Source: Terriglobia bacterium (GTDB taxonomy: Bacteria > Acidobacteriota > Terriglobia > Terriglobales > Acidobacteriaceae). From it: a stretch of 64,000 nucleotides of DNA. How positions within the stretch are numbered: the stretch's first letter is position 1; each line of letters starts with the position of its first letter. The stretch spans positions 124,001 to 188,000 of the forward strand of contig JAIQGK010000010.1 of NCBI GenBank assembly GCA_020072645.1, in the 5' to 3' direction. Shown in pieces: positions 1-19,179 of this stretch. The position numbers and the translations under genes were made by a program. Under the pieces are notes generated by a model that did no database searches, was not told the origin of the DNA, and was given only the letters and a program-made list of their open reading frames with translations.

Positions 1-326
1 TTCTGACGGGTCATCAGGATTTGCTCCGCCAGTTCAGCCGACGCCAGAGGATTTCCATCAGCGTCGCGGCGTATCTCCGTCAAAAACTTGAGGGCGTCGA
101 ATTGATCAATCTTCACGGAAGAGCCGGTCTCGGTGGTTGAACCGCGGGCCAAAACGATTATGTTGTCGTCTGAGCCGCTATGCTGGATTGCGTGGGAGAT
201 TCCTGAGACCATCGCCATGGCCACGACGAAAACCGCCACTACTAGCGCGATACCTCCGCCGGTCATGGCATTCGACACCCGCCGGACCATCAGGCTTCTT
301 CGGTTATATTTCAGGGGAATGGCCAT
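1..326 (-). CDS. ABC transporter permease, FtsX/MacB type (partial, C-terminus outside window)
   Basis: Reading the minus strand from an ATG at 326 gives an open frame that runs off the left edge. It begins MAIPLKYNRRSLMVRRVSNA, followed by a hydrophobic helix (about residues 22-45) and then a periplasmic-looking segment with SDDNIIVLARGS. Basic N-terminus, one membrane helix and an extracytoplasmic core is the N-terminal layout of MacB/LolC/LolE permeases. The ATG lies one base after the stop codon of the preceding permease gene (TGA-A-ATG), so it is the third gene of a tightly packed ATPase-permease-permease operon. Having two different permeases suggests a LolCDE-like heterodimer, but the substrate is unknown. 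The call rests on layout and neighbours, because only about 108 codons are visible. Confidence 0.8.
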   Translation of the reverse strand, partial: MAIPLKYNRRSLMVRRVSNAMTGGGIALVVAVFVVAMAMVSGISHAIQHSGSDDNIIVLARGSTTETGSSVKIDQFDALKFLTEIRRDADGNPLASAELAEQILMTRQ

Positions 327-327
327 T

Positions 328-1476
328 TCAATCCACTATCCTGAGCGCATCGCTAATCTTCCGCCGCAATGCAGATCTTGCCGGCACATATGAACTCAAT
401 AGCCCTATCAGAATCGAGGCGAGGACCGTCTCCAAAAGCACGGCGATGGGGATCTGAATGGCGCCAACGAACGGTCCAAGAACATCCGATGTCACCGAGA
501 AGACCTTCAGCAGACCGAACGCTGCTCCGACGCCCAGAATGCAGGCGGAGAGAGCGGTGACCACCGATTCAGCAATCAGTAAACGCAGAATCCGCGAGGA
601 ACGAAAGCCGATCGAGCGCATGACTGCAATCTCATTCCGCCGCTCCCGAATCGACATAGCAGCAGCATTCGCGGCAACCAATCCAATCGTGAGCACGATG
701 ATCAAGCCAAGCAACCTGGCAAGCGTGAAAAACATTCGAAAGCGGCCGATCACGTTGCCCAGAAACACCGCCTCAGAATCGCACTGCGTCTCCGCCGAGG
801 AATTTGCAAATTGTGAATTCAATGCCTGAATGATTTGAGGAACAGCAGCCGAGCTGTCGGCGCGCACCCAAAAATTATCGACACGGCCAGGACGCCCTTG
901 TAACTCCTCGAGATAGTCCCGGTGAAATATCATGAAGCTCGGCGCTGGTCCCTTCGCAATGGTTCCTACGATAGTTAGCGAGACACTTACCGGGTAATAG
1001 CCTGCCCCCCGTAGCTGGATTTGCTGGCCAACGGCAAGATGGAAGCGCTTCATCGTGCCTTCAGCCACGAGACATGCGGTACGAAGCTTCTTGTATTGCT
1101 CGACGCTGCCAGGAGAAAACCCCCAGTCAGGCCACATCACGTCGATTTGCCCGGGGTCAACGGCAATATTGGGGAATTGATCCGAGACCTCATGATAGAT
1201 GCCGCCAAAGAAGTTTTCCGGTGTAACGGCGACAACGTGGGGAGTAGCGGCAATCTTGCTCTTATAAGCTTCCGGCAACGGATAGGCCAGCCCCATCTTT
1301 GTGCGGCAAGCAAGTCGAACCGAGGAAGCGGAGTCGGCAAGCACGTGATTGGCAACCGTAGGAAGGCTTACCAGGGCGGAAAAGATGAATAGAGACACGG
1401 CGATCGACAGCACGGTCAGAATCGTCCTACGCTTGTTGCGGAACAGATTCTTTAAGACGAGAGTTGCGAACTTCAC
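328..1476 (-). CDS. ABC transporter permease, FtsX/MacB family
   Basis: This 382-residue inner-membrane protein has the MacB/FtsX plan: a basic N-terminus (LFRNKRRT), a first membrane helix at about 16-40, a periplasmic core of roughly 200 residues, and three membrane helices after about residue 250. The loop motif MSIRERRNEIAVMRSIG between the later helices is the typical FtsX-family cytoplasmic coupling segment. Its start overlaps the end of the ATPase gene by four bases (ATGA), and a second permease follows after one base, so the genes are translationally coupled. The family moves lipoproteins, peptides or drugs out of the inner membrane by mechanotransmission. Which of these applies here cannot be read from the sequence. 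Confidence 0.9.
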   Translation of the reverse strand: MKFATLVLKNLFRNKRRTILTVLSIAVSLFIFSALVSLPTVANHVLADSASSVRLACRTKMGLAYPLPEAYKSKIAATPHVVAVTPENFFGGIYHEVSDQFPNIAVDPGQIDVMWPDWGFSPGSVEQYKKLRTACLVAEGTMKRFHLAVGQQIQLRGAGYYPVSVSLTIVGTIAKGPAPSFMIFHRDYLEELQGRPGRVDNFWVRADSSAAVPQIIQALNSQFANSSAETQCDSEAVFLGNVIGRFRMFFTLARLLGLIIVLTIGLVAANAAAMSIRERRNEIAVMRSIGFRSSRILRLLIAESVVTALSACILGVGAAFGLLKVFSVTSDVLGPFVGAIQIPIAVLLETVLASILIGLLSSYVPARSALRRKISDALRIVD

Positions 1477-2231
1477 CGATCTTCTCCCCCGATAAGGACG
1501 CTCTCGGCATGGATAAAGACGCCCTTGTCCAAGCGAAAGATGCTGTCCACATAACGCTCAGCGCGTGAATCGTGGGTCACCATAACAATGGTCTTCTTGA
1601 ACCGCCGATTGAGTTCGGAAAGAAGAGTGAGAATTTCCTCGGCGGACTTCGCATCGAGGTCGCCAGTTGGCTCATCGGCAACGACGATCGTTGGATCAGT
1701 AACGATAGCACGCGCGATCGCCACCCTTTGCTCCTGCCCACCGGAGAGTTGCCGTGGATAATGGTTCATCCGTTCGGCCAATCCCACTGCCTCCAGTGCG
1801 GCCTCGACATGGGTCTTGCGTTCCGCTTTATCGAGGTCAGTGAGCAGGAGCGGCAATTCGACGTTCTCAAATGCTGTTAAGACCGGGATCAAGTTATAGA
1901 ACTGGAATACGAGACCGATATGGCGAGCACGCCAATCTGCGAGATCGTTCTCATTCATTCCAGTGATCTCTTCGCCGCCAACGGAAACATGTCCTGAAGT
2001 CGGGTGGTCTATCCCGGTGATCAAGTTGAGCATGGTTGTCTTACCTGATCCCGACGGCCCCATGATGGCCACAAAACTTCCTTGCGGAATCCTCATGGTC
2101 ACATCATCGAGGGCCCGCACCTCAAAGCCTTCGCGCCGATAGGTCCGGGTCACCTGATTCAGAACGACGGCGTCTCTACTATTCAGAATGACAGCGTCCT
2201 TATGTGACATCTCGTTTTCTTTTTTGGCCAT
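1473..2231 (-). CDS. ABC transporter ATP-binding protein, LolD/MacB type
   Basis: This cytoplasmic ATPase energises the two permeases that follow it. Numbered from the longest frame (2255), Walker A is GPSGSGKT at about 66-73, the signature LSGGQ is at about 170, Walker B with [11 protein letters not shown] is at about 190-201, and the H-loop is MVTHD. LolD/MacB-type ATPases share this short single-domain form. Three in-frame ATGs exist at 2255, 2231 and 2210, none with a strong Shine-Dalgarno. A candidate ECF41 promoter at 2286-2260 would start transcription at about 2252-2255. That makes 2255 possible only as a leaderless start and favours 2231 or 2210. The 3' end overlaps the permease start by four bases. 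Confidence 0.93.
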
Positions 2232-2259
2232 AGTGGAACATCGGCTATGTGACATTAAA

Positions 2260-2286
2260 GACCGGAGATTACATCAGTTCGTGACA
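2260..2286 (-). promoter_or_regulatory. Candidate ECF41 promoter P1 (MacB-type ABC operon)
   Basis: On the minus strand a TGTCACG box (2286-2280) is followed by exactly 16 bases and then GGTC (2263-2260). ECF41 sigma factors recognise TGTCACA-N16-CGTC, so this matches six of seven -35 bases and three of four -10 bases with the correct spacing. It points at the ABC transporter genes, and its predicted start site falls at about 2252-2255. Confidence 0.6.
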
Positions 2287-2614: not shown

Positions 2615-3865
2615 ATGAAAGCATTTATAGTTTTCCGATCTCCTTTGCTTGCCGTCATTCTGACAATAAGTTTTGCCGTGACAGCGGCGCAGGCGGTTAC
2701 GCCGGATGACGGAGACGACGCCGGTAGAGTCTATGTGATGACCAATAGGCCATCGGGCAATGCAATCATCGTCTATAATCGGGCCGCGGACGGCTCTCTA
2801 ACCAAACTGCAAGAAGTCTCCACTGGCGGCTTGGGCGGTGATGATGCCGTTCTCCCGCCACCATTACCTCCCAATCCAGGTCCCGACCCGCTGCAATCAC
2901 AGGATGCGATCGTCTTGACATCAGATGGCCGTTTCCTGCTGGCAGTCAATGCCGGCAGCAATGAGATCTCAGTATTGCGAGTGACCCGCTCCGGTTTGGA
3001 GCTAGCAAGTAAGCAGTCAAGTGGCGGCGCTTTCCCCGTTAGCATCGCACAACACCGGGACATAGTTTATGTATTGAATGAAGGCGAGAGCCCATTTGAC
3101 GTACTAGGGAAATCCGGCAGCATCACAGGGTTTCAGTTGGGATGGGATGGAAAATTGTCCCCAATTCCGAATTCGACCAGAGATCTTGGGCCAGACACCG
3201 GCGCATCGGACATCATTTTTAGCGGCGATGGAGGCACTCTGGTCGCGACTGAAATGTTCACCAATCTGCTGGATGTCTTCCATGTAAGTTCTGACGGTAC
3301 TCCCGGAAGCAAGACTTCCATTCCTACGAACCAGCCTACTCCTTTCGGAGCCGCATTTCGCGGCGACATCATGACGGTCACCGAACTTCATGTCATCCCT
3401 GTCGATGGGCGGCGTCAAGGGCTGCCTAATGCCTCAACTATATCCAGCTACAGAGTGCAAAGCGATGGTTCGCTTCAAACGATTAGTAATTCGGTGGCTA
3501 TCAATCGAACAGGAAGCTGCTGGGTCCGCTTCAGCCTCGATGGCCGTTTTGCTTATACTGTCGACACGCTGAGCGGCACTATCTCTACCCTTACGGTATC
3601 GAAGCAAGGGGAGCTGGCTCTGCAAGGTATCGTCTCTACCGGAGGGGCCTTCAGCGCTCCTATCGATATGGATATAACAGCCGATGGCAAGTTTCTCTAT
3701 GTAGTCCTCTCTCTGGGACAAATCTCCCATACTCCGCCACTGCTTCCAACACCAGACTCTCCTGCGCGCGTGCAGGGCTATCAGATCCAAAAGGATGGCA
3801 CTCTGATTCCCATAGCGACAGTGGGCGACATCCCAAACAGTGTTCAAGGCCTCGTCGCCCGCTAG
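2615..3865 (+). CDS. Secreted beta-propeller lactonase-like protein 1
   Basis: This 416-residue protein has a signal peptide (basic start, hydrophobic stretch, cleavage near AAQA at about 25) and a body made of repeated blades. The blades share the pattern DGRFLLAVNAGSNEISVLRV, IVYNRAADGSLT and ADGKFLYVV, as in the 6-phosphogluconolactonase-like seven-bladed propellers (PF10282). A proline-rich loop (PPPLPPNPGPDP) lies at about residue 75-85. A purine-rich Shine-Dalgarno (GAAAGGAAAA) precedes the ATG. The next gene, 120 bases on, is a clear paralogue, so these are tandem duplicates. With a signal peptide it acts outside the cytoplasm, so a role in the pentose phosphate pathway is unlikely. 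Its actual substrate is unknown. Confidence 0.88.
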   Translation: MKAFIVFRSPLLAVILTISFAVTAAQAVTPDDGDDAGRVYVMTNRPSGNAIIVYNRAADGSLTKLQEVSTGGLGGDDAVLPPPLPPNPGPDPLQSQDAIVLTSDGRFLLAVNAGSNEISVLRVTRSGLELASKQSSGGAFPVSIAQHRDIVYVLNEGESPFDVLGKSGSITGFQLGWDGKLSPIPNSTRDLGPDTGASDIIFSGDGGTLVATEMFTNLLDVFHVSSDGTPGSKTSIPTNQPTPFGAAFRGDIMTVTELHVIPVDGRRQGLPNASTISSYRVQSDGSLQTISNSVAINRTGSCWVRFSLDGRFAYTVDTLSGTISTLTVSKQGELALQGIVSTGGAFSAPIDMDITADGKFLYVVLSLGQISHTPPLLPTPDSPARVQGYQIQKDGTLIPIATVGDIPNSVQGLVAR

Positions 3866-3985
3866 TTGAAGAGACCTGGCGGGTTTCACGCCTTGCGAAC
3901 GGGGAGAAGTGACTCCTGTTTGATCTATGAATAAATACTTCCTACAGCTGCTGGGATGGTCCCAGTGAGAAAGCAGAGCAAAAAG

Positions 3986-5251
3986 ATGAATTTATTGAAG
4001 GCCTTTCGAGCTAAGTTGGCCCTGGTGAGTGCAACCATTTTGGTCCTTGCATTGTCCCTGAGTGCCAGTGCGGCCGTCCACGACGACGGTGACAACGCAA
4101 AAGTCAACAATAGAGTCTATGTCTTATCGAATGTGGGCACCGGGAATACAATACTCGTATATGATCGCGCCGACGATGGCGTCTTAACCTTCCTTAGCGA
4201 GGTTGCCACTGGCGGCTTCGGAAGCGGACCAGGTGAGTTGCCACCGCCGCTGCCACCCTTTCCCGGACCAATTCCTCTCGATTCACAGGACGCTTTGATC
4301 AAGACTTCCGATGGCCGTTTTCTCATTGCCGTGAACGCCGGTAGTAATGACATCTCGGTATTGAATATCACTCGCGATGGCCTGAAGTTAACGGACAAGG
4401 TCCCATCCCAAGGCATCTTTCCGGTCAGCCTGACTGAGCACCAGCACCTTGTCTACGTCGCGAATGCCGGCCAAACGCCTGATGAACTCCCTGGAGCAAC
4501 ACCATCGATTACGGGATTCCGCCTCAATGAAGATGGCAAACTCCACTTCATACCAGGTTCGAGAAAGATCGTCGGTCCCCCCGATGCCAGCGCCGCTGAC
4601 ATCGTATTTAGTCCGGATGGCAAAGTGCTGGTAATGACGGAGCTCAACGGAAACATGGTGGACGTATTTCGAATGGGAGAGGATGGAAGGACGATTGATG
4701 AAACCAGAACCCCTGCAAACAGCCTCACGCCGTTCGGAGCCCAGTTTACGCGGGGTAACATTTTGGCCGTCGTAGAAACAAATGACACTTCGCGCCGCCT
4801 GGCCGTCAACAATGAAACCAGTGCCTCAACTTATCGCGTTACCAGCGATGGGAATCTCGTTCCTATCAGCAAAGCAGTAAAGAATGGCGAAACTGCAGCT
4901 TGTTGGATTCGCTTTACTCCAGATGGACAATTTGCATTCTCTATAAATGCAGGAAGTGGTTCCATCTCCACCTTCAAACTGTCGCCTGATGGCGAGTTGT
5001 CCCTGGTAAATGGGATCACGGTTGATACCGGTGGCCCATTTAGCTTGCCAATTGATGCGGACATCACAGCTGATGGCAAATTTCTTTATGTCGCGGCTGC
5101 CCTCGATGGGCTCAATGGAAAACCGCAGATTCCATTGCCGCTAAAAGTTGCGACGATCCAAGCCTATCAAATCGGCAGCGACGGATCACTAACCTTGGTT
5201 GGTAAAACAACTGGAGTTCCGTTTACCACCGAGGGAGTTGTTGCCCATTAA
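3986..5251 (+). CDS. Secreted beta-propeller lactonase-like protein 2
   Basis: This paralogue of the preceding gene has about 421 residues from the ATG at 3986. That start gives a clean signal peptide (MNLLKAFRAKLALVSATILV, cleavage near SASA). The frame stays open to an ATG at 3956, which would put ten charged residues before it. It shares the propeller blade motifs and the proline-rich loop (PPPLPPFPGPIPLDSQDA) at the same place as its neighbour, followed by DGRFLIAVNAGSNDISVLNI. No separate promoter is evident in the 120-base gap, so co-transcription with the first copy is likely. The two differ throughout in detail, so the duplication is not recent. Function beyond the PF10282-like fold is not known. 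Confidence 0.88.
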   Translation: MNLLKAFRAKLALVSATILVLALSLSASAAVHDDGDNAKVNNRVYVLSNVGTGNTILVYDRADDGVLTFLSEVATGGFGSGPGELPPPLPPFPGPIPLDSQDALIKTSDGRFLIAVNAGSNDISVLNITRDGLKLTDKVPSQGIFPVSLTEHQHLVYVANAGQTPDELPGATPSITGFRLNEDGKLHFIPGSRKIVGPPDASAADIVFSPDGKVLVMTELNGNMVDVFRMGEDGRTIDETRTPANSLTPFGAQFTRGNILAVVETNDTSRRLAVNNETSASTYRVTSDGNLVPISKAVKNGETAACWIRFTPDGQFAFSINAGSGSISTFKLSPDGELSLVNGITVDTGGPFSLPIDADITADGKFLYVAAALDGLNGKPQIPLPLKVATIQAYQIGSDGSLTLVGKTTGVPFTTEGVVAH

Positions 5252-5261
5252 ACCCACTCTG

Positions 5262-5298
5262 GCAGAGAAGAAGGGGCTTGGGCCCCCTCTCTCCTGCC
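5262..5298 (+). terminator. Putative terminator hairpin after the lactonase pair
   Basis: Just after the stop codon, GGCAGAGAAGAAGGGG pairs imperfectly with CCCCTCTCTCCTGCC across a short loop. There is no strong T-run, so a transcription-ending role is only probable. Confidence 0.45.
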
Positions 5299-5444
5299 AC
5301 GAGGCGGTTTTCAGCCGACCACGCCAACCTTGGGTCGGCAGGTAAGCAATCAATCGTCTGCAAAGTTCCACGTCTGCCAAATGCGATGCCCAAGGGGACG
5401 ACGTGGATTTAGTGGATCAAATGGGTTCGTCTCCAGTCGGATTT

Positions 5445-5580
5445 GATCCTCTTTCATAAGCATGACATTGTGACAAAAGGCACACTGCCCCCGCTTAGCC
5501 TGTTCCCCCAAATCGAGAAGCCAAAGCCGGTTGCGGATGTGCTCCTACGCTTTTTTTTAAGTTTGCCGGTATAGGAAGAG
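5445..5580 (-). repeat. Dispersed repeat copy A (contains a CXXCH-encoding stretch)
   Basis: This block recurs in degraded form at 5699-5860 in the same orientation. Read on the minus strand one frame gives RGQCAFCHNVMLMKEDQ, a haem-binding CXXCH pattern, but a TAG stop lies about 24 codons upstream in that frame and no start codon or ribosome site is in place. The second copy does not keep the frame. It is therefore called a repeat or decayed gene, not a cytochrome. Confidence 0.5.
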
Positions 5581-5698
5581 CCGCTGGCAGGCTCTTAGCT
5601 TCTTAAAGCAGGGCTTCTGGCGGCCAGCTTTTACAGAATTTTGGGAATCTGCCGCTTACCAAGAAAGTAACCTTCGGGGGCGTTGGTTCCTTTGTTTT

Positions 5699-5860
5699 GA
5701 TCCTCCTTCATAAACCGTGACATCGTGACAAGGCGCGTATTTATTGACGAAAATGCATAACTGCCCGCGCTTAAGCCTGTTTCCAGAATCGAGAAGCCAA
5801 AGCCGGTAGCACGATGTGCTCCCACGTTTTTTTGCAAATTTGCCGCTACAGAAAAGAGGT
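5699..5860 (-). repeat. Dispersed repeat copy B
   Basis: This second copy of the block at 5445-5580 shares GATCCTC.TTCATAA, GTGACA, and AATCGAGAAGCCAAAGCCGG, but carries an extra segment of about 25 bases (ATTTATTGACGAAAATGC region). The CXXCH pattern of copy A is lost here. Confidence 0.5.
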
Positions 5861-6359
5861 GCGTCTGAAATGACGCATACGCTGGTTTGAGACTGGCTTA
5901 AGGGCTGAGAACAAAGGGCCAAGCACCTCGGCTGAGATTAAGGAATAAACAATTTTGCGTATGAATCGGAATCAGGGAATCTTAAAGAGTCTTTTTGGAC
6001 ACGGCTCCGCCAACCCTCATAAATTAGCCACGCCAGTTAAGCTCGCGCGAATAACCCGGAAACAAGAGGAGAATATAACACGAAGATGCAGAATGAATGG
6101 CATTTTTCGGCACGATTAAAGAGCTTGCGGAAAAACACTTTTCGAGACTGAAAAGAGAGCAGGGGCCGAAAGCCCGACTGATTTTAAGGGCTCTGCGGCG
6201 CGAGGTAAACTTGTGCCCTGATACCTTCAGAGGCTAAAGCCATCGTATTTCCCGCAAACTCTAAAAGTCGTGCTCTGACACCAGCAGCTAAAGCTCGTTT
6301 TCCGCAAGCTCTAAAAATCAATCCCTGGTACAAGTATCGAAATTAGCTTGTACCCGTTC
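5861..6359. other. Intergenic region without a recognisable gene
   Basis: No supported coding frame is seen. Near its end, two related units beginning GCTAAAGC and ending CTCTAAAA (about 6234-6268 and 6287-6318) form a direct repeat just beyond the 3' end of the gene at 6360. They may be remnants of dispersed elements. Confidence 0.4.
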
Positions 6360-7841
6360 TCAGTGTTGACCTTGCCGCTGGCGCTGGCGCTCGATTATTC
6401 CAACCGCTACCAGGGCTGGATCCAGGTCAACGAAGAGGGCATCATTGCGGTTCACGAGGTAGATGCCGGCGTTTTGGCGCCTGGCCGGGGATTGCAGGAT
6501 GAGCGATCCTCGGCCGGTGGAATCGACTGAATAGCTACCGATAAGCGGAGTTCCGCTGGAAGTTGATCCACCGCCATTGATATCAAGAATCCCGGTTGCA
6601 CCCCCGCGGCCATTGGCCGTCAGCAATGCGACCGCATCTACTTCATCGCGGACGAGAAAATCCGCGCCGGTGTGGTTAAGTCCGTAATTTCCCTTGAAAT
6701 TCGCATCGGTGAGGTCGTCAGCATGTTGCGAAAAGATGGCACCGCTCACAGCTGTGCCAGCGTCCGTCTCCATGACCTGGATGCCATTGACAGTTGGATA
6801 AAGCGTGAGGTTGAGCGTACCGGCCGATGCAGCATTGATGATGCCCACTCCGCGCCCGTTTGCATCCAGCGTATATGTGCCTGACATTCCCATGTTAAGT
6901 GCGATCGAGCCGACTCTATTGAAATCTGCTGTTCCGCTGATAATCGTCCCTTTACCGTCGGAGGAAAATACTCCCCCAGCAACGAAGGGGCCGCCAGCCG
7001 CCAGATTATTTCCAGAAATCGTGAATGCAAATGATCCGATCGGGAAAGAATTACCGATAGGTTCACGCTGGCGGAACGCATCTCCGGCCAAAGCTGGAAG
7101 CGGGTCAGTCTCAACCAGTTTTATCCGATCTGCATCGACAACATAGAAAGCGAAATTGCGAACGCCGGCAGCCGTATTGATCGAAGCTGTACCTCGGCCA
7201 TTGGTTTCCATGCGAATGGATCCACCCTTGATGGCTTCATTCGTGGAGATGGCACCGATATCGGAGCTGTCCTGTATGCCGCCGGTGATAGTTCCTGACG
7301 TATTAGTTTTAAATGAACCTACGGTCTTCATTGGGCCTCCAGAAGGGCCCAGCCCGGTTAAATTGAATACCAAGGTTCCCGCCAGAGCCGAAGTAGAAAA
7401 TGCAGAAGAATCCTGCAAATCCAGAGAGCCGCTGGCGGTGGCGTCCTGGTCAAACCTGATCACGAGAGCGCGGTGGTGGGAAAGCGTTACAAATACGAAG
7501 TTGAAATTACCGGCAGAGCTGGTTAATTCGGCTGCGCCGCGTCCGCCGGCTTCGATGTTGTAAGTGCCGGAAATGGACAAATTTGTGACTGGCGACGGCG
7601 TCTTGTTCACGTCCAGCACGCCCGAAGCAATGCGACCATGGCCATCTGCGATGAATGTGCCGCCAATGGCAAAAAATCCATTCGCATCCTTACCGGAAAG
7701 TGCAATCGCATAAGCGCCATTCAAATCGGCATTGGTGAAGCCTTCTCCAGGTTCGAGACCATCAATAGCATATGATCGGAAGGTGAGCGACACAAAAAGC
7801 ATCGCCGCCAGGAAAAACGAGCGCTTATATCTCATAGTCAT
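6360..7841 (-). CDS. Secreted protein of four tandem repeats, function unknown
   Basis: This 493-residue protein has a signal peptide (MRYKRSFFLAAMLFVSLTF, cleavage near SYA at about 25). The rest is four repeats of roughly 105-115 residues (about 40-152, 153-258, 262-372, 373-488). Each has the same order: a G.(Y/F).F/L opening, a GG.F..DG.G.I.SG..D. segment, a GTY....GRG segment, and a hydrophobic strand ending in a V..D or ETD turn. This suggests a repetitive all-beta extracytoplasmic protein. I know similar proteins only as uncharacterised secreted proteins of Acidobacteriota. The gene starts seven bases after the DoxX-like gene, so both are read from the candidate ECF41 promoter at 8380-8354. 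Confidence 0.8.
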   Translation of the reverse strand: MTMRYKRSFFLAAMLFVSLTFRSYAIDGLEPGEGFTNADLNGAYAIALSGKDANGFFAIGGTFIADGHGRIASGVLDVNKTPSPVTNLSISGTYNIEAGGRGAAELTSSAGNFNFVFVTLSHHRALVIRFDQDATASGSLDLQDSSAFSTSALAGTLVFNLTGLGPSGGPMKTVGSFKTNTSGTITGGIQDSSDIGAISTNEAIKGGSIRMETNGRGTASINTAAGVRNFAFYVVDADRIKLVETDPLPALAGDAFRQREPIGNSFPIGSFAFTISGNNLAAGGPFVAGGVFSSDGKGTIISGTADFNRVGSIALNMGMSGTYTLDANGRGVGIINAASAGTLNLTLYPTVNGIQVMETDAGTAVSGAIFSQHADDLTDANFKGNYGLNHTGADFLVRDEVDAVALLTANGRGGATGILDINGGGSTSSGTPLIGSYSVDSTGRGSLILQSPARRQNAGIYLVNRNDALFVDLDPALVAVGIIERQRQRQGQH

Positions 7842-7848
7842 TACCTGA

Positions 7849-8307: not shown

Positions 8308-8353
8308 TCCAGAAACCTCCAGATCGAGTTGCTGTACACCAATACTGATCTAT

Positions 8354-8380
8354 GACATGCGGAGCACCATTCTTGTGACA
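8354..8380 (-). promoter_or_regulatory. Candidate ECF41 promoter P2 (DoxX operon)
   Basis: On the minus strand TGTCACA (8380-8374), 16 bases, then TGTC (8357-8354). The -35 box is a perfect ECF41 match, and the -10 matches three of four bases of CGTC. It drives leftward into the DoxX-like gene and lies back to back with P3, which starts 43 bases to the right. Confidence 0.68.
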
Positions 8381-8422
8381 ACCAAGCCTGACAATTATTT
8401 TCAACGAATTTATTCCACTTTT

Positions 8423-9796: not shown

Positions 9797-9828
9797 CCTG
9801 ATTTCCCTCAAATCATTTGAGCTTTCCG

Positions 9829-11409: not shown

Positions 11410-11542
11410 CAGTTCACAACCAACGATATGGCTAAGCCGCACAAACTCACGAGGGCTACAACCAGCTTCTTCTAGACCCATCTCGTAAATGCTCCTGGGA
11501 TTGCCACCAGGCCTAAAAGCCCATTTCACCTAGGCTTGGAAC

Positions 11543-11560
11543 GCGGGCCTGAAGGCCCGC
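11543..11560 (-). promoter_or_regulatory. Intercistronic hairpin between ABC-2 permease and TolC genes
   Basis: GCGGGCC (11543-11549) and GGCCCGC (11554-11560) form a perfect 7-bp stem with a TGAA loop. It has no T-run. It may modulate the relative amount of TolC message or stabilise processed ends. Confidence 0.4.
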
Positions 11561-11676
11561 ACTTCCACCAACTGCGCTAAAGCGTATTTAGGAGATGGTT
11601 TCCAATCCTTAACGACCCCGAGGGGCTGCTCTTCCGCCCATCTGCCGGGTCTGAGATATAGCAACTCAGGGCAGCT

Positions 11677-12852
11677 TCAACTGATCTGTTTACGAAACCG
11701 CCAGACGCTCAATGAGATCAAGATCACCGTCAAGAGTGACAGGCCAAGGAAGCGGGCCCACAAATCTGCAAATCCACTGCCTTTCAACAGGCTCCCGCGA
11801 GCGATCTCTACGAAGTGCGTTAGCGGATTGAGAGCGGTGAAAGGTCGCAACCATCTCGGCATCGCCTCGACCGGAGTCAAAACCCCGGAGAGCGTAACCA
11901 AGACTGGGTTTATAAAGAAACTGGTGAGCAACGCCTGCTTGGCTGTTTTGCTGAATGTAGCAGTTACCGTTCCGATGCCAATCCCCACAAGCGAGCAAAA
12001 CGAGGCGCCCACCAGCACGAGAATCATGCTGCCCTGAAACGGCACATGGAAAACAAGCTTCAGCATGGTCAGCACGAGCAATACCATCAGGCACATTAGA
12101 AAGAAGATGGGCATGATCTTGGAAATGATGATCTCCGAAGTGCTGGCCGGTAACATGAGCAGCTGCTCGATGGTGCCACTCTCGCGTTCTTTGATCATCA
12201 TGGTGGAAGCTACCAATGAACCATCGAGCACCAGCAAGAGGCCCAAGACGCCGGTAACGATGAACCAGGAACCATCGAGGCCGGGATTGTAGAGGAAGGC
12301 GGGCTGAAGAGTTACGACGCCACGGCGAGCAATATCGTGAACTGCGACTTTCTCAAACCGGACGTGAAGCCCTTCATGAGCCAGGTCGCGATTATAGAAC
12401 TGCATTACGTTTTCCACGTATCCCTGGCTAATGGCTGCGGTATTGGCGTTGGTTGCATTCAGGAGAAATTGGACATCGGTCGAGTGTCCACGCTGCAATT
12501 CACGAGCGTATTCATACAGAATAACCACACCCGCATCGACGTCGCCGCGGCCGAGCGCCTCTCCCAGTTGTTCGACCGAAAAATAGGACCCCTGCAGTTT
12601 AAAGCTCCTGCTCTCTGTAAGCGCTGCGATCAAAGCACGGCTTTCAGGAGTCCTGCTCTGGTCGACTACGCCGAGCTTTACATCAGTCACATTGGCGCTA
12701 AGAGCAAAGCCCAAGAGCAGGACTTGCAAGATAGGCTGCATGGTCAGCGACCCGACCATCCGCTTGTCACGTCCAATCTGAATCAACTCCTTGCGCACCA
12801 GGGCGGCGAGCCGGTAATTGAAGACTTTGCGAAAGAATTCTCCCATGGTCAC
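11677..12852 (-). CDS. ABC-2 type transporter permease (YbhR-like)
   Basis: This 391-residue inner-membrane protein has the ABC-2 permease layout: one N-terminal helix (SLTMQPILQVLLLGFALSA) preceded by KELIQIGRDKR, a large extracytoplasmic domain to about residue 175, then five helices. The motif IKERESGTIEQLLMLPASTSEIIISK between helices is the classic ABC-2 ER.SGT.E.L..TP signature. The start is GTG at 12852, overlapping the preceding stop by four bases (GTGA), or an ATG six bases further in. It pairs with the neighbouring permease as the E. coli YbhR/YbhS pair does. Confidence 0.92.
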   Translation of the reverse strand: MTMGEFFRKVFNYRLAALVRKELIQIGRDKRMVGSLTMQPILQVLLLGFALSANVTDVKLGVVDQSRTPESRALIAALTESRSFKLQGSYFSVEQLGEALGRGDVDAGVVILYEYARELQRGHSTDVQFLLNATNANTAAISQGYVENVMQFYNRDLAHEGLHVRFEKVAVHDIARRGVVTLQPAFLYNPGLDGSWFIVTGVLGLLLVLDGSLVASTMMIKERESGTIEQLLMLPASTSEIIISKIMPIFFLMCLMVLLVLTMLKLVFHVPFQGSMILVLVGASFCSLVGIGIGTVTATFSKTAKQALLTSFFINPVLVTLSGVLTPVEAMPRWLRPFTALNPLTHFVEIARGSLLKGSGFADLWARFLGLSLLTVILISLSVWRFRKQIS

Positions 12853-13955
12853 GCCTCGAGTTGCATGCGCCGCATCTTACGCCATGCGACCAGATAAAAG
12901 ATCATTCCGAACAAGGCGATCGCCAAAACCTTAAACCATGCCGCGGACCAGCCACCGCCCTGCAAAAAGGCATCGCGAACGACTTCAATGTAATATCGGC
13001 CCCAAACAAGATTCGAGATCCAGCGCAAGACGGCAGGAATGTTCTCAATCGGAAAGATGAGCCCGCCCAGAAGAAACACAAGCAGGTAGCTGAAAACTCC
13101 AACTGCCTGCACGGCCGCCGCCTGGTCGGGAATAGCTGCTCCCAGCAGGGTGCCGAATGCCGGCACGCAAAATGCGTAGAGAAGTGTAGCGACCACAAAC
13201 GGAGTTGGATCGCCGGCAAAGCTCGTGCCGAAATAGGTGAACAGCAATATCAGGCAGAGCAGCGCTTCGCTCAAAGAAATGGCCGCAAATGCCAGAATCT
13301 TTCCCAACAGGAATTCATGGGCCGAGATGCTCGATACAAAGACCTGAAGGATGGTCTTCTGCTCTCCTTCTTTGGACATTGCCAAAGAAGCTAGAAGCGA
13401 CGGGAAGATGGTAAGGACAAGAACGAAAATGCCGGGGCCGTAAAATTTTTTCGAGGACCGCTCCGGATTGTACCAAAGTCTGATGTCCGCTCTTACCGGC
13501 TCGGGATGAGCAGCTTCGCCGTTGTCTTGATTGAAGGCCGTGGTGATCTGGCGGGCATAACCGGCAAGGAGACGGGCGGTGTTGGAATCGGAAGCATCGA
13601 CCAGGAGTTGCACTGGCGAAGTGGTTCCGCGCGCAATATCTCTACCGAAGTGCTCCGGTATGATCAATGTCGCCCGTGCCGTATGGGATGTAAAGGCCTG
13701 CTCCGGCTGCTTCTGCACAGGCCAGGAAACAACATGAAAGCTGATGGATGCGCGGAACTTATCGACAAATTTTTGCGAGGCCGGCGAGTTGTCGAAGTCC
13801 TGCACCACCACCGGAAGCTCGTCCACGTCGAGCGAAATACCGGCACCCATCAGCACAAGTTGGACCAACGGAAATATCAGCGCCAATCCCAGCGCTCGCC
13901 GGTCGCGCAATATTTGGACCAATTCCTTCCGCGCCTGGGCCAATATGCGTCTCAT
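12849..13955 (-). CDS. ABC-2 type transporter permease (YbhS-like)
   Basis: This is the second membrane subunit of the exporter, 368 residues. An N-terminal QARKELVQILRDRRALGLALIF segment precedes the first helix. An extracytoplasmic domain follows with DASDSNTARLLAGYA, a feature shared with YbhS/YhhJ-type permeases, and then five to six helices with the ABC-2 motif SKEGEQKTILQVFVSSISAHEFLLGK. It starts nine bases after the fused ATPase and ends in a four-base overlap with the partner permease. Together they would form the heterodimeric membrane channel that hands substrate to the HlyD-TolC conduit. Homologues export drugs or cations; specificity here is unknown. Confidence 0.92.
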   Translation of the reverse strand: MRRILAQARKELVQILRDRRALGLALIFPLVQLVLMGAGISLDVDELPVVVQDFDNSPASQKFVDKFRASISFHVVSWPVQKQPEQAFTSHTARATLIIPEHFGRDIARGTTSPVQLLVDASDSNTARLLAGYARQITTAFNQDNGEAAHPEPVRADIRLWYNPERSSKKFYGPGIFVLVLTIFPSLLASLAMSKEGEQKTILQVFVSSISAHEFLLGKILAFAAISLSEALLCLILLFTYFGTSFAGDPTPFVVATLLYAFCVPAFGTLLGAAIPDQAAAVQAVGVFSYLLVFLLGGLIFPIENIPAVLRWISNLVWGRYYIEVVRDAFLQGGGWSAAWFKVLAIALFGMIFYLVAWRKMRRMQLEA

Positions 13956-13964
13956 GGCCGCTCC

Positions 13965-15947
13965 TTATGCTTCCCCGGCAACGGCCCCGTGAGGCCGTGA
14001 TTGTTGGACTACACTGATGAATACGTCTTCGAGCGAGAAGCGCCCCTCGCGCACATCGACGACATGAACCCCGACTGTATTCAATTTGTCCACGGCCAGC
14101 CGTTTCTCCAGATCAAAGTCATCATCGGTAATCACGTGAAGCCGGTCTCCGAACAGTGAAACGCGCCAGGGTTCGGCGGCATTCTTCAACAGGTCAGCCG
14201 CACGTTGAGGCTGGTCCACAATGATTTCCAGCAAATGACCTTTCTGTTGGGCCTTGATCGCTCCCGGATTCCCTTCCGCCACAATCTCGCCGGCCACCAT
14301 AAGCCCGAGACGATTGCATTGCTCGGCTTCTTCCAGGTAATGGGTGGTAACTAGGATGGCGGCACCCGCATCTGCCAGGCGATTGATCATCTTCCAAAAA
14401 GCCCGACGGGCAAGAGGATCAACTCCGGATGTCGGCTCATCCAAAAAAAGCACCGAGGGCTCGTGCATGATCGCCGCCCCGAACGCTACGCGCTGCTTCC
14501 ACCCGCCCGGAAGACTGCCAGTAATCTGGTCCTGCCTCCCTTCCAGCCCCGAAAAGGCAAGCACCCATTCAATTTTTTCTGCGCGCTCCAGTTGGGGCAC
14601 GCCATAGACTCCAGCAAAAAACTCCAGGTTTTCCCGGATCGTAAGATCGTCATAGAGAGAAAATTTCTGCGACATATACCCGATCTTGTTGCGCACGCGT
14701 TGCGAACGCAGGCTGCCGCGCTCCCCGGCCAGAGTCATTTCTCCGCTTGTCGGACTCACGAGACCGCAAAGCATCTTGATGGTGGTGGTCTTGCCGGCGC
14801 CATTCGCACCCAGCAATCCATAGATTTCTCCATAGCGGACTTGTACATTGACGTTCTTGACGGCCAAGAAGTCTCCGAACCTCCTCGTCAGGCTGGTGGC
14901 GGCGATGGCAAAGTTGCTGGACTGCCGTTTGCGGCTATGGCGCGCGGGAAACGGCTTGTCGTGCATTTGATGCCCAAGGCCCCGCAGTTTGGCGACGAAG
15001 GTGTTTTCCAAAGTAGGACGATCGACGCGCAACTCCTCTACGGAAAGATTGGAGGAGGCCAAGGCTTGAACCGCGATCCGCTCGGCAATTTGGACATTCG
15101 GCGCCAGCAGATCAAGCCGATCGCCGAACCGCTGCACATCAAGAATCTCGCGTTCAGCTCCGCTGACTCTTGAAAGCACGCGCTCAGCCTCGCCCAGATT
15201 TGCCGTCCGAAGCTCCAACCGGCTGGCGTTCAAACTGTTGCGTATCTCGTCAGGTGTTCCAATTTGTTGGATTTCTCCCAAATGCAGGAGAGCGACGCGG
15301 TGACACCTTTCGGCTTCATCTAGATAAGGAGTGGCAACGAGGATCGTAAGACCGATCCCAGAGAGATGGGCCAGGGTATCCCAGAACTCCCGGCGCGAGA
15401 CCGGATCGACCCCGGTGGTCGGTTCATCCAGGACAAGAACACGAGGTTGCGCCACCAACGCGCATATCAGCGCCAATTTCTGCTTCATGCCACCACTTAG
15501 CTGCCCGGCAAGACGCCCAGCAAAGCGGTCCATGTCAAACGCTTTAAGGTACTGGCTCCCCCGGTCAATAATCTCGTTTACGGGAACGCGACGCAGATCA
15601 CCTATATAGCGAATGTTTTCCATTACGGTCAGATCGGGATAGAGACTAAACGCCTGCGTCAGGTAACCAGTCTGAGCACGCATATCGCGGGCAGGATGCC
15701 CAAAGACTTCAGCCTGACCCGAAGAGGCCTCCATCACGCCCGCTAAAATCTGGAAGGTTGACGTTTTACCGGCTCCGTCAGGTCCTATCAAGCCGAATAT
15801 CTCGCCTGGTTTCACCTCGAAATTAATTCCGCGGATCGCTTCAATATCTCCGTATTGCTTCTTTAAGTCTCGTATACATATGGCAATGGGAACTTTTCCC
15901 TTCGCCAAATTCCCATTCCGAGACTGATCCCGGACCAAGGTCGTCAT
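13965..15947 (-). CDS. Fused dual ABC-2 transporter ATPase (YbhF-like)
   Basis: This 660-residue protein has two ATPase domains in one chain. Domain 1 has Walker A GPDGAGKTS at about 54-62, signature LSGGMKQKLAL and Walker B LVLDEPTTGVDP. Domain 2 (from about 345) has GANGAGKTT, an altered signature LPGGWKQRVAFG, and LFLDEPTSGVDP. The loss of the Ser in the second LSGG may make the two ATP sites unequal, as in many heterodimeric exporters. The gene overlaps the HlyD gene by four bases (ATGA). The order HlyD, dual ATPase, two ABC-2 permeases, TolC matches E. coli ybhGFSR plus its own outer-membrane channel. Confidence 0.94.
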   Translation of the reverse strand: MTTLVRDQSRNGNLAKGKVPIAICIRDLKKQYGDIEAIRGINFEVKPGEIFGLIGPDGAGKTSTFQILAGVMEASSGQAEVFGHPARDMRAQTGYLTQAFSLYPDLTVMENIRYIGDLRRVPVNEIIDRGSQYLKAFDMDRFAGRLAGQLSGGMKQKLALICALVAQPRVLVLDEPTTGVDPVSRREFWDTLAHLSGIGLTILVATPYLDEAERCHRVALLHLGEIQQIGTPDEIRNSLNASRLELRTANLGEAERVLSRVSGAEREILDVQRFGDRLDLLAPNVQIAERIAVQALASSNLSVEELRVDRPTLENTFVAKLRGLGHQMHDKPFPARHSRKRQSSNFAIAATSLTRRFGDFLAVKNVNVQVRYGEIYGLLGANGAGKTTTIKMLCGLVSPTSGEMTLAGERGSLRSQRVRNKIGYMSQKFSLYDDLTIRENLEFFAGVYGVPQLERAEKIEWVLAFSGLEGRQDQITGSLPGGWKQRVAFGAAIMHEPSVLFLDEPTSGVDPLARRAFWKMINRLADAGAAILVTTHYLEEAEQCNRLGLMVAGEIVAEGNPGAIKAQQKGHLLEIIVDQPQRAADLLKNAAEPWRVSLFGDRLHVITDDDFDLEKRLAVDKLNTVGVHVVDVREGRFSLEDVFISVVQQSRPHGAVAGEA

Positions 15948-17209
15948 TTTCCGTGCCTACCTTTGGGCCAACGATCGCCTTGCACTAAAATCTCGCCATC
16001 GGCAGGCATTCCCGGTTTGGCAAATCCGATGGCCCCTTTTAATTGCAGCTTGATGCCCACAACCTGCTTCACCCGATCATCACGGAAATATGTATTTTCG
16101 GGAGTGAAGATGGCTTGCGGATCAATTCGTGAAACTTCAGCATCAACGGGCTGGTCAGGCTTGGAATCGAGATAGACATGGGCTCCCTGACCGATCTTGA
16201 CTTTTCCAATCTGGCCTTCCGGTACAAAGCCACGCAAATAGACTCTATCCAAGTCGAGCAGCGTAATAATCGCTGTTCCCGCTTGCACCACTTCGCCCGG
16301 CTCAGCGGCGCGCGTGATGACCGTGCCGGAAAAAGGTGCCACCACGTTTAAATCCTGGAGGTTCGCCTGAGCCTCGTCCAACTGGGCATGGGCCTGCGCC
16401 GCATTCGCAGTTGCGCTTACAACTTCGGCCTGCTGCTGAGCGATCTGCCTTCGCACGGCGGCCATTTGTGTACCCCGGATCCCGACGTTGGACAGGTTTG
16501 CCTTGGCCGTTGCGAGACCACCGCGCGCTGCCTCTACTCGCCGCTTCGCGGCCGCGACAGCTCCTCCCTGCTGGTCGGCAGTGGCTACCGCCTGCCTTCC
16601 CTGCCTCTCGGAAACTGCACCTGTGCGCGCCAGCTGCATATAGGCTTCTCGGTCAAACGAAGCTAATTGAAACGCCGCTTCCTGTTGCGTAAGATCGGCC
16701 TCCGCCGCCGCCAAGTCAGCCTCTGCTTGTTGCACTCGCCCATGCGCATCCAGCCCTGCCTGTTCCATTTGCAAGCGGGCTTGCTGCAATTGCTCTTGCA
16801 GCACCGCGATCTGGGCTTTGGCGGCGTTGGCCCTGGCTTCGGCGCCCATGACTGCAACCCGGGCTTGCTCCAAACGGTCTTTGATCTGCTCATCGTCAAG
16901 ATGCGCAATTACGTCACCCTCACGAACCACATCACCCTCACGCACTCTAACCTCGAGAATTCGCCCGGTCACCTTGGACGCCACCGCAGAATCGTCGCCC
17001 TCAACCCTTCCACTCAAGACGACGATGTTGTCAGGAATGGCAGCCGAAAAAAACAGTCTCCAGATCAATACCGCACCCGCTATAAGTACGATCGGGATCG
17101 CTATCAGCGCGATCTTGCGCTGCGGCTTTGCCACGTGCGCGGCTTTCGATTCCGGCTCTGGAGATTCCAACTCACGCGCCGGAATTTCTTCAATAGTTGA
17201 TTGCGACAT
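15944..17209 (-). CDS. HlyD-family periplasmic adaptor (YbhG-like membrane fusion protein)
   Basis: This 421-residue adaptor links the inner-membrane ABC-2 permeases to TolC. It has a short cytoplasmic N-terminus, one membrane helix at about 32-54, the first half of a lipoyl domain (VASKVTGRILEVRVREGDVVREGDVIAHLDD), a long Ala/Gln-rich coiled-coil hairpin at about 105-285, and then the second lipoyl half and beta-barrel (APFSGTVITRAAEPGEVVQAGT). AGGAG seven bases before the ATG supports the start. It is the first gene of the exporter operon. A TGTCACA-N16-TGTC candidate ECF41 promoter (17328-17302) precedes it, giving a leader of about 87 bases. Confidence 0.93.
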   Translation of the reverse strand: MSQSTIEEIPARELESPEPESKAAHVAKPQRKIALIAIPIVLIAGAVLIWRLFFSAAIPDNIVVLSGRVEGDDSAVASKVTGRILEVRVREGDVVREGDVIAHLDDEQIKDRLEQARVAVMGAEARANAAKAQIAVLQEQLQQARLQMEQAGLDAHGRVQQAEADLAAAEADLTQQEAAFQLASFDREAYMQLARTGAVSERQGRQAVATADQQGGAVAAAKRRVEAARGGLATAKANLSNVGIRGTQMAAVRRQIAQQQAEVVSATANAAQAHAQLDEAQANLQDLNVVAPFSGTVITRAAEPGEVVQAGTAIITLLDLDRVYLRGFVPEGQIGKVKIGQGAHVYLDSKPDQPVDAEVSRIDPQAIFTPENTYFRDDRVKQVVGIKLQLKGAIGFAKPGMPADGEILVQGDRWPKGRHGK

Positions 17210-17493: not shown

Positions 17494-17913
17494 CTAGAGC
17501 GATTTTGGATCATATATCTCTTGACTTGTTTGTACGATACGCCGGCACTCGATTTCGTCCTCGCCGGTTGTTTGGGCAATTCGGCGGTATTCGCAATCAA
17601 AAATGGTGCGCAGAAGAAAAACCACGCGCTCTACCGGAGCAAGGCGATCCAAAATCCTGAGACATGCGTTGGGAATAGACTTTTTTGAGCGTACACCCTT
17701 TGAAGATTGAAACCCTGGCGCCCGCGGCCACGGAGGCATGCGTGATTCCACAAACCCTTCGATGTGCTGCAGGCGATCAAGACTGAGCATCGCCACGGTA
17801 GAGACTAGGAAAGCCCTGGCATTCTCGGTTCCCAAATTTGAGACTTGCGACCAGCGACGCAAGGTCGCCTCTACCCAAGCGGTTTCCTCACAATGCCAGA
17901 TGCGATGCGACAC
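17494..17913 (-). pseudogene. Truncated ECF41-like sigma factor paralogue
   Basis: This 139-codon frame with a GTG start aligns with the full ECF41 gene next door. Its VEATLRRWSQVSN...ARAFLVSTVAML matches the end of region 2 (LQDAFLRWQQASS...PKAFLVTVVTRL). Its LRILDRLAPVERVVFLLRTIFDCEYRRIAQ matches region 4 (LLERLTPVERAVFLLREVFDYEYSEVAK). The first part of region 2 (core-binding helices) is missing, as is the whole C-terminal SnoaL-like domain with DGGGK and NPDKL. The WLPEP linker is also not recognisable. It most likely is a decayed duplicate. A regulatory remnant that still binds DNA through region 4 cannot be excluded, because the frame is still open. Confidence 0.7.
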
Positions 17914-18033: not shown

Positions 18034-18060
18034 ATAACCGATGGAACCAGTTTTGTGACA
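18034..18060 (-). promoter_or_regulatory. Degenerate ECF41-type promoter P6 before the truncated sigma gene
   Basis: A perfect TGTCACA (18060-18054) on the minus strand is followed at 16 bases by TTAT instead of (C/T/G)GTC. The -35 half is kept and the -10 half is lost, which fits decay of a duplicated autoregulated sigma gene together with its promoter. Confidence 0.45.
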
Positions 18061-18084
18061 CTCACCTTTTTTAGTTGAAAAGAA

Positions 18085-19026
18085 TCAGCATGCCAATGGC
18101 GCGACATGGTGCAACTTATCCGGGTTTCGCAAAATATAGATACGACAGATCTGTCCATCGACAACATCCATCGTAATCACAGTTCTGACCTGCCCGTTTA
18201 CGCAAGTGATGAAACCTGGCTGGCCATTGACTTGCCTGAGTTGCAGGATCGCACCTTCAGGCCTGAACTTCCTGGCCGCTCCAGCCATTAACCGGGCTGC
18301 ACGTTCGCGGCCAAACACTGGGTTCATCAATGCGGAAGCCTTACCACCACCATCGGTATGCACCGCGATATCGCTGGAAAAAAGCTGCAAAAGTCCTTCT
18401 ATGTCACCGCGAGAAGAAGCATCGATAAATTGCCGTAGCAATTTCTCCTTCGCTATTGGAGAAGCATCAAATCTCGGCCGCATGTTCTTGATATGCAATC
18501 TAGCCCGGCGGAAGATCTGGCGGCAATTGACTTCACTCTGTCCGGCAATTTTTGCAACCTCCGAATATTCATAGTCGAACACTTCTCGAAGCAAAAAGAC
18601 AGCCCTCTCAACCGGCGTCAAACGTTCTAGGAGGAATAGAAATGCCAAAGAGAGGGATTCATCCATCTGGGGGGGAAGCGATGGATCGTTCCCAGCAGAA
18701 GTCACCACAGGCTCCGGGAGCCATTCCCCAACATATTGCTCCCGTTGCACGCGCGCAGATTGCAAATGGTTGATGCATAAACGCGTGACTACTGTGACTA
18801 AGAACGCTTTAGGAGAGCGTATTTCGCCGGAAGAGGCTTGCTGCCAACGGAGAAATGCGTCCTGCAGGATGTCTTCAGCGTCAGCCAAACTCCCCAACAT
18901 TCGGTACGCTATTGAAAGCAGCAAAGGCCGCCACTTCAGGAAATCATCCAGGCTGAACTCCACAGCAATGCTGGCTGGCGTAATACTCGGGATAGACCTT
19001 CCAGATGCCACGCTTCGCACGTTCAT
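18085..19026 (-). CDS. ECF41-family RNA polymerase sigma factor with C-terminal SnoaL-like domain
   Basis: This 313-residue sigma factor has region 2 at about 28-95 (LLLSIAYRMLGSLADAEDILQDAFLRW), the linker with WLPEP at about 107-111, region 4 at about 140-190 (RLTPVERAVFLLREVFDYEYSEVAKI...NCRQIFRRAR), and a SnoaL/NTF2-like C-terminal domain with DGGGK and the terminal NPDKL. Those three short motifs define the ECF41 group. In that group the C-terminal domain replaces an anti-sigma factor and tunes activity. No anti-sigma gene is present nearby, as expected. The start at 19026 is ATG with no clear Shine-Dalgarno. A TGTCACA-N16-TGTC promoter (19179-19153) predicts autoregulation with a leader of about 120 bases. 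Confidence 0.93.
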   Translation of the reverse strand: MNVRSVASGRSIPSITPASIAVEFSLDDFLKWRPLLLSIAYRMLGSLADAEDILQDAFLRWQQASSGEIRSPKAFLVTVVTRLCINHLQSARVQREQYVGEWLPEPVVTSAGNDPSLPPQMDESLSLAFLFLLERLTPVERAVFLLREVFDYEYSEVAKIAGQSEVNCRQIFRRARLHIKNMRPRFDASPIAKEKLLRQFIDASSRGDIEGLLQLFSSDIAVHTDGGGKASALMNPVFGRERAARLMAGAARKFRPEGAILQLRQVNGQPGFITCVNGQVRTVITMDVVDGQICRIYILRNPDKLHHVAPLAC

Positions 19027-19103
19027 AAATTATATTATGGATCCAGCTTCGTAATGTGTTTTGAAAATCTTTTTTCCCAAAAAGAGAAACACCTTTCCGC
19101 TGC

Positions 19104-19136
19104 ATTTCTCCCATCGGGCCTGTAATTTCTCCCATC
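19104..19136. repeat. Direct 12-base repeat in the sigma gene leader
   Basis: ATTTCTCCCATC occurs exactly at 19104-19115 and 19125-19136 (21-base period). On the transcribed strand each copy reads GATGGGAGAAAT. It lies between promoter P5 and the sigma start, inside the predicted untranslated leader. Confidence 0.7.
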
Positions 19137-19152
19137 AGACCCTTGATAAAGA

Positions 19153-19179
19153 GACAGGCTAGGAATCCGATTTGTGACA
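19153..19179 (-). promoter_or_regulatory. Candidate autoregulatory ECF41 promoter P5
   Basis: On the minus strand TGTCACA (19179-19173), 16 bases, then TGTC (19156-19153), 127 bases before the sigma gene start. Autoregulation through this motif is typical of ECF41 genes. Confidence 0.72.

Follow-up and report, generated by a model that had tools for sequence, protein, structure and literature searches.

The 64,000-nucleotide window analyzed here (positions 124001-188000 of contig C10 of genome G000, a 6.4-Mb assembly of 42 contigs) carries an ECF41 sigma factor gene together with five promoter-like sites of the type used by this family of extracytoplasmic function (ECF) sigma factors, placed in front of two export operons, a DoxX gene, a beta-propeller gene, and the sigma gene itself. 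We consider it probable that these elements form an ECF41 regulon that has grown through added promoters on a genomic island, and that it operates as follows. By analogy with other ECF41 proteins, a SnoaL-like C-terminal domain would keep the sigma factor switched off, and a conformational change triggered by a small molecule or by stress would release it. The active factor would then recruit RNA polymerase to TGTCACR (-35) and KGTC (-10), turning on its own gene, the DoxX gene, a six-gene ATP-binding cassette (ABC) operon, a Ybh-type exporter operon, and the propeller gene. In the ABC operon, whose predicted order is ABC ATPase, two FtsX-type permeases, HlyD adaptor, short-chain dehydrogenase/reductase (SDR), and DoxX, the export genes may have been inserted between the promoter and an old SDR target. 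The regulon would overlap that of a paralogous factor, ECF41b, that lies on contig C7 next to a putative type II polyketide cluster, and it would probably serve to detoxify and export some lipophilic or redox-active compound. ECF41 factors are widespread and their purpose is unclear; in the two species studied closely, they served one oxidoreductase-type gene. That old targets are combined with two exporters, and that a twin lies beside a polyketide cluster, suggests that the purpose is efflux and detoxification of compounds, and the regulon offers a concrete promoter set for seeking the ECF41 signal.

The ECF41 sigma factor and its predicted promoter sites

The sigma gene (18085-19026, minus strand) encodes a 313-amino-acid protein with sigma2, sigma4, a WLPEP linker (here GEWLPEP), and a SnoaL-like C-terminal extension that keeps the DGGGK and NPDKL motifs. 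PF04542 and PF08281 exceeded their Pfam cut-offs with no further sigma region reported, which is the ECF architecture, and the SnoaL_2 match in the C terminus fell under its cut-off (20.5 versus 27 bits). The protein scored 361.6 bits against TIGR02957 (cut-off, 323.25), which we take to be the ECF41 family profile; together with the family motifs, this supports the assignment to ECF41 made in the preliminary description. Residues 25 to 305, C-terminal domain included, align with the closest solved structure, that of Mycobacterium tuberculosis SigJ (PDB 5xe7; E 1.9e-46). The closest named relatives come from metagenome-derived genomes of Terriglobia and other Acidobacteriota, at identities of at most 58%. 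No ECF41 match at 1e-40 was found in eight same-genus genomes, and 41 of the 399 genomes in our class sample had a match at 1e-50. There was no anti-sigma factor among the annotated neighbors, short membrane proteins not having been searched exhaustively.

Five sites matching TGTCACR-N16-KGTC precede the ABC operon (2286-2260, minus strand; TGTCACG-N16-GGTC), doxX (8380-8354, minus strand; TGTCACA-N16-TGTC), a lactonase-type propeller gene (8423-8449, plus strand; TGTCACG-N16-GGTC), the HlyD/Ybh-type exporter operon (17328-17302, minus strand; TGTCACA-N16-TGTC), and the sigma gene (19179-19153, minus strand; TGTCACA-N16-TGTC), the last predicting autoregulation. All five are present as originally described, each with a 16-bp spacer and in the right orientation. 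In the window, this strict pattern matched five times, versus a mean of 0.08 and a maximum of 1 in 100 shuffles, a test that flatters a pattern derived from the five sites themselves. A looser pattern (TGTCAC, a spacer of 16 to 19, then GTC) matched six times, versus a mean of 1.32 and a maximum of 5, and allowing two mismatches gave no excess in the window (30 versus 41). The sixth looser match (25171-25144) lies within the hemE frame, has a longer spacer, and was attributed to chance.

Across the genome, the strict pattern matched 12 times, versus 3 times for the same pattern reversed; the 12 comprise the five window sites, three near the second ECF41 gene, and four elsewhere. The last four sit in mechanically called open reading frames (ORFs) of 134, 142, 253, and 262 amino acids, which is a weak argument, since a mechanical ORF of 146 amino acids (8045-8485) spans two of the window sites. 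Among seven congeners without an ECF41 match (G001-G004 and G006-G008; the eighth same-genus genome, G005, was left out), the strict pattern was at chance level, with 27 matches versus 26 reversed controls (2, 5, 3, 6, 3, 4, and 4 per genome; controls 8, 1, 2, 5, 5, 1, and 4). The five sites are accordingly real and far above chance. With a relaxed TGTCACA pattern and spacers of 15 to 17, the genome gave 26 matches versus 11 controls; three of these loci, L037 (C7:120062), L042, and L045, lie outside any ORF of at least 90 amino acids and could be further sites. Over 98 stretches scanned, 57 held one site, 17 two, 15 none, and 7 three, with four in L023 on contig C7 and six in the window; this ranking is rough, as the window's six include the chance match at 25171 and stretch lengths vary.

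The boxes also agree with the sigma factor at the level of a single residue. Among ECF41 loci of several phyla, a site lay within 2.5 kb of the gene in 79 of 96 cases, and when the nearest site of each was taken, Asp in the region 2.4 motif RLCI[N/D]xL went with C as the first -10 base in 38 of 38 loci, whereas 40 of 41 loci with a non-Asp residue had G or T there. The corresponding Fisher p of 7.6e-22 ignores kinship and is overstated. In a quickly built tree that omitted these columns, switches numbered about 12 for the residue and about 13 for the base; in six independent pairs on well-supported branches, the base followed the residue's direction in an average of 5.9 of 6 and in none took the opposite one ( median p 0.031, range 0.031 to 0.063). 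The window sigma has Asn at this position and all five of its boxes carry G or T, as the rule predicts; Asn in place of Asp would account for K where other ECF41 promoters have C. The proposal that these boxes look like ECF41 promoters is therefore backed from three sides: the protein family, the cross-phylum footprint, and the match between residue and -10 base. This rule linking one residue to one base (C for Asp, G or T for Asn) recurs across phyla and renders ECF41 regulons predictable with less noise. It resembles the position-specific residue-base links of the ECF code that Todor et al. published in 2020, as cited in PMC8103513 and PMC11588781, and given that published code, novelty is not claimed for the rule within ECF41.

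Published ECF41 systems provide both likenesses and differences. According to Wecke et al. (2012; PMC3426412), the ECF41 promoter consists of TGTCACA, 16 ± 1 bp, and CGTC; the sole detectable target is a neighboring carboxymuconolactone decarboxylase, oxidoreductase, or epimerase (COE) gene; and shortening the C-terminal extension makes the factor hyperactive, whereas removing it makes the factor inactive. The window sigma is like the Bacillus licheniformis and Rhodobacter sphaeroides factors described there in its sigma2/sigma4 regions, WLPEP linker, and C-terminal extension, and its predicted promoters share the -35 element (last base A or G here), the spacer, and an oxidoreductase-type target, the SDR, which lies about 20 kb from the sigma gene and is hence not adjacent to it. 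Unlike those systems, the first -10 base here is G or T instead of C (TGTT is also shown there for B. licheniformis), five local promoters and about five at the paralog locus are predicted instead of one detectable COE target, and exporters and a propeller are among the predicted targets. The single-target trait has been presented as an observation from two species, not as a definition of ECF41. Wider ECF41 regulons are not unheard of, as a title cited in PMC8999054 has an ECF41 factor controlling motility in Azospirillum brasilense. The M. tuberculosis SigJ/SigI pair likewise comprises two ECF41 sigmas in one genome with a SnoaL-like domain, and no exporter cluster is described for it in the accessible text of PMC8999054; in our alignment, the region 2.4 residue that is Asn in the window sigma is Asp in SigJ. 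Within the library searched, no report joined ECF, SnoaL, and DoxX, and none joined Acidobacteria, ECF sigma, and exporter, whereas three Streptomyces papers came up for ECF sigma factor, SnoaL, and polyketide together.

Probable inherited targets and added exporters

Behind the first site begins the predicted six-gene ABC operon (1-2255, minus strand), with an ATPase (1473-2255), an FtsX/MacB_PCD permease (328-1476), and a second permease running leftward from 326; it continues left of the window with the HlyD adaptor, SDR, and DoxX_2 genes (L024:16353-19159). Gaps of 119 and 81 bases precede the SDR and DoxX genes, and no terminator-like site was found in them. Because the box ends four bases ahead of the ATG of the longest ORF (2255), the ATPase gene must start further in, at ATG 2231 or 2210. 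The operon is like MacAB, DevBCA, and LolCDE in having a LolD/DevA-type ATPase, FtsX/MacB_PCD permeases, and an HlyD adaptor; unlike MacB proper, its ATPase and two permeases are separate genes, and it ends in SDR and DoxX.

The site-led doxX gene (7849-8307, minus strand) encodes a DoxX_2 membrane protein (PF13564; E 9e-18) with 53.8% identity over 119 residues to the DoxX of a site-led operon at another ECF41 locus (L047). The lactonase-type beta-propeller (8572-9720, plus strand; PF10282, E 4.5e-14; longest ORF from 8422) is probably secreted, judging from a signal-peptide-like N terminus that follows the likely start at ATG 8572. The Ybh-type exporter operon (9829-17209, minus strand), assigned by Pfam and NCBIfam, has the full complement of YbhGFSR-type systems within one predicted operon: an HlyD adaptor (15944-17209), a fused double ATPase (13965-15947), two ABC-2 permeases (12849-13955 and 11677-12852), and a TolC-type outer membrane channel (9829-11529).

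Comparison with other ECF41 loci separates these targets into older and newer ones. A site-led unit with DoxX was present in 8 of the 15 nearest distinct acidobacterial ECF41 loci mapped (L047, L049, L050, L052, L211, L212, L216, and L217), its partners being one or more of a 157-amino-acid protein with four predicted membrane helices, an alpha/beta-hydrolase, an NAD(P)-binding epimerase-like protein, and an SDR. The SDR of the ABC operon shares 64.5% identity with the SDR of L052, 61.5% with that of L217, and 62.5% with that of L216, and in the latter two, the SDR gene lies directly behind a site. DoxX and SDR thus seem to be shared, inherited acidobacterial ECF41 targets. Since its SDR is shared with other ECF41 loci, the ABC promoter appears to act on an old ECF41 target from which export genes now separate it, and this SDR is the strongest comparative evidence linking export to ECF41. 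Among the targets originally named, DoxX and, through its SDR, the ABC operon are therefore backed by comparison; for the Ybh-type exporter and the propeller, the motif is the evidence.

The HlyD protein of the Ybh-type operon had matches at 1e-50 in 31 of the 399 class genomes, own included, and at 1e-60 in none of 60 nearer relatives. A motif filter applied to the 98 stretches found an ABC exporter under a site only in the window, but this filter is weak, as it missed the window's own ABC ATPase. In a homology search of other ECF41 loci, the two permeases of the ABC operon had no match, its adaptor had one weak match (28%, L213), and its ATPase had several distant ABC proteins. In genome G181, a distant ECF41-like gene has in its vicinity a site-bearing ferritin-like gene followed by a C39-type ABC exporter, and this speaks against the window's setting being strictly unique.

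The exporters appear to be add-ons on a mobile-looking island of about 37.5 kb (C10:107.24-144.79 kb; window 1-20790 is its right part) that is absent from one congener. In that genome, G006, 780 bases separate the left flank (L024:1461-3242) from the right flank (window from 20791). Inside the left edge of the island are a tRNA-Ser gene and a phage-type integrase; the tRNA-Ser segment is found in G006 too, elsewhere and inverted, so that more than one rearrangement has occurred in the region. A segment at 19545-19595 (minus strand) looks like the 3' half of a tRNA-Ala and is presumably an integration scar; ARAGORN reported no complete tRNA here. The preliminary description had seen exporters and propellers in an ECF41 regulon as a new setting. 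A purely new setting is not supported: the SDR is the usual oxidoreductase-type target, and DoxX and SDR appear ancestral, the exporters being the apparent additions.

The second ECF41 locus and competing explanations

The regulon had also been called self-contained, which it is not. A paralogous factor, ECF41b, with like promoters is encoded on contig C7 and is 64% identical to the window sigma; the two are identical over NCRQIFRRARLHI, a 13-residue stretch of sigma4, and differ once in an 11-residue stretch of region 2.4. Because the sigma4 stretch is identical, cross-reading is expected, and ECF41b should read the same promoters. Sites on C7 precede ECF41b (spacer 15), an intact short sigma gene, a vicinal oxygen chelate (VOC)/glyoxalase-like gene, and a 157-amino-acid gene, and another lies about 630 bases ahead of a propeller pair; the locus also holds a DoxX gene. 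Two lactonase-type propellers in the window (2615-3865 and 3956-5251, plus strand), which have no site in front, are 60.5% and 76.2% identical to the pair beside ECF41b.

Next to ECF41b are genes for a ketosynthase (KS) with the active-site Cys, a partner without it, cyclases, a ketoreductase-like SDR, biotin carboxylase, and biotin carboxyl carrier protein, which in our reading represent a type II polyketide cluster. No ABC ATPase motif was found in the 40 kb around ECF41b, and its ORFs of at least 130 amino acids have at most four predicted membrane helices by a crude hydropathy count. A KS-beta query matched 238 of 399 genomes at 1e-60, own included, with at most 41% identity outside the own genome among the matches listed; these are taken to be mostly FabF-like and thereby provide no test of co-conservation of polyketide synthase and ECF41. 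The link between the polyketide cluster and the regulon is circumstantial, consisting of like promoters, the shared propeller pair, and the lack, by that crude count, of ABC ATPase motifs and of ORFs with more than four predicted membrane helices near the cluster.

We infer that the window sigma controls the five units, and several observations weigh against this reading or its generality. As ECF41b should read the same boxes, local control is indistinguishable from paralog control. In six ECF41-bearing relatives (G023, G331, G241, G181, G416, and G334), the strict pattern showed a modest excess of 49 matches versus 30 controls (8, 6, 10, 14, 9, and 2 versus 2, 8, 6, 4, 6, and 4), with G331 (6 versus 8) and G334 (2 versus 4) under control level; a modest excess is expected if, as may be the case, most of them hold few true sites. 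No site-led DoxX was seen in 7 of the 15 mapped loci. Unlike the window operon, none of the 11 homologous Ybh-type exporter loci examined has the box within the 700 bases scanned ahead of the aligned part, which begins at residue 50 in 10 of 11. Of the propeller units near the two ECF41 genes, two of six have a site, one of them at about 630 bases upstream. The residue-base rule is broken by L091 (Ser with C; 1 of 79), and one C7 site (L023:12049) has A as its first -10 base. The island junction is covered by a single congener, G006. Finally, B. licheniformis has 15 putative ECF41 promoters, some before ABC transporter genes, and only the COE gene was detected as a target, according to PMC3426412.

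The strongest alternative, which we regard as conceivable while doubting it, is that the boxes are read mainly by ECF41b or by both sigmas, the block being the export arm of a polyketide-centered, genome-wide regulon in which the local sigma is redundant. The identical sigma4 and near-identical region 2.4 stretches, the like boxes at both loci, the shared propeller pair, and the crude count that found neither an ABC ATPase motif nor an ORF with more than four predicted membrane helices around ECF41b all favor it. Against it, the local sigma is intact, keeps its conserved motifs, and has its own promoter, whereas the neighboring short sigma has decayed to a remnant. A more elaborate version, in which both sigmas form one circuit whose SnoaL-like domain would sense the aromatic C7 polyketide product and switch on island exporters and envelope protection, is speculative and in our estimate improbable; the namesake SnoaL is a polyketide cyclase. 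If true, a sigma factor would couple synthesis to export across two loci.

It is unlikely, though a real possibility, that some boxes, chiefly those ahead of the Ybh exporter and propeller genes, were left behind when promoters duplicated and are irrelevant to expression. Two broken copies are in fact visible: at 18043-18064 (minus strand), a direct repeat preceding the truncated second sigma gene keeps TGTCACA (18060) and has lost its -10 box, and the propeller promoter is followed at a 23-base step by a degenerate tandem copy (8446-8472). The missing boxes at homologous exporter loci and the failure of most motif matches to emerge as targets in B. licheniformis (PMC3426412) point the same way. 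However, the exporter and propeller boxes keep the conserved bases and the exact spacer, and the sequence around the exporter box, the one of the two that was compared, has diverged from that of the other promoters. Spread of the promoter by recent duplication of long DNA was considered and found no support, as similarity between the sequences flanking the sigma, remnant, HlyD, and C7 promoters is confined to about 15 to 34 bases around the -35 element.

TGTCAC resembles a Crp half-site. We think it very unlikely that the boxes are sites of a Crp/FNR-like regulator in place of a -35 element, an idea favored by minus-strand TGTCAC without a -10 partner at 2254, 2209, 5475, 5722, and 5730 and by two Crp-like genes near ECF41b; it would leave unexplained the strict spacing to xGTC, the cross-phylum presence with ECF41, and the covariation of residue and base. 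That a pattern-seeking reader picked five chance matches can practically be dismissed: the strict pattern was fitted to the sites, but the literature pattern predates them (PMC3426412), and shuffles, reversed controls, and congeners give fewer than 0.1 strict matches per 64 kb.

Short sigma genes and neighboring features

The truncated remnant of a second, short sigma gene (17494-17913, minus strand) scored 71.2 bits against TIGR02957 over residues 15 to 130 only and is 43% identical to residues 50 to 165 of the intact C7 protein. The latter (187 amino acids; L023:6444-7007) lies behind an ECF41-type promoter and has no SnoaL-like domain, and its sigma4 helix differs from that of ECF41; its possible roles are those of a decoy, a member of a cascade, or a copy freed from regulation. 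In a search of the class sample with this short sigma that scored at most eight candidates per genome, matches listed outside the own genome were open frames of at least 262 amino acids, except for one of 181 amino acids (G338). The same C7 region (L022/L023, G000:C7:15000-54999) holds two further ECF sigmas, two Crp-like regulators and one MarR regulator, and several lactonase-type propellers. The VOC/glyoxalase-like gene behind an ECF41-type site (L023:7107-7400) appears frameshifted, for which an assembly error is possible.

Directly 3' of doxX, a 493-amino-acid protein (6360-7841, minus strand) has, on reading of its translation, a signal-peptide-like N terminus and four similar repeats, and had no Pfam or NCBIfam match. 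The intergenic region beyond it contains two copies, 78% alike, of a repeat (5484-5534 and 5760-5810) adjoined by TGTCAC boxes. A precursor peptide was considered for 5250-6360 and rejected, as the region offers the repeat (5484, 5760) and no convincing ORF.

Genome G181 has clustered sites at two further places. In one of them, L233 (G181:C1:4989000-5008999), three sites of the KGTC type, including two in divergent orientation, surround Rieske, TMEM175-like, ferritin-like, and C39-type ABC genes, and a fourth site match falls inside the distant ECF41-like gene. In the genome analyzed here, PF10282 gave 28 propeller matches, versus 6 to 14 in the eight congeners (matches, not genes), a possible expansion of this family.

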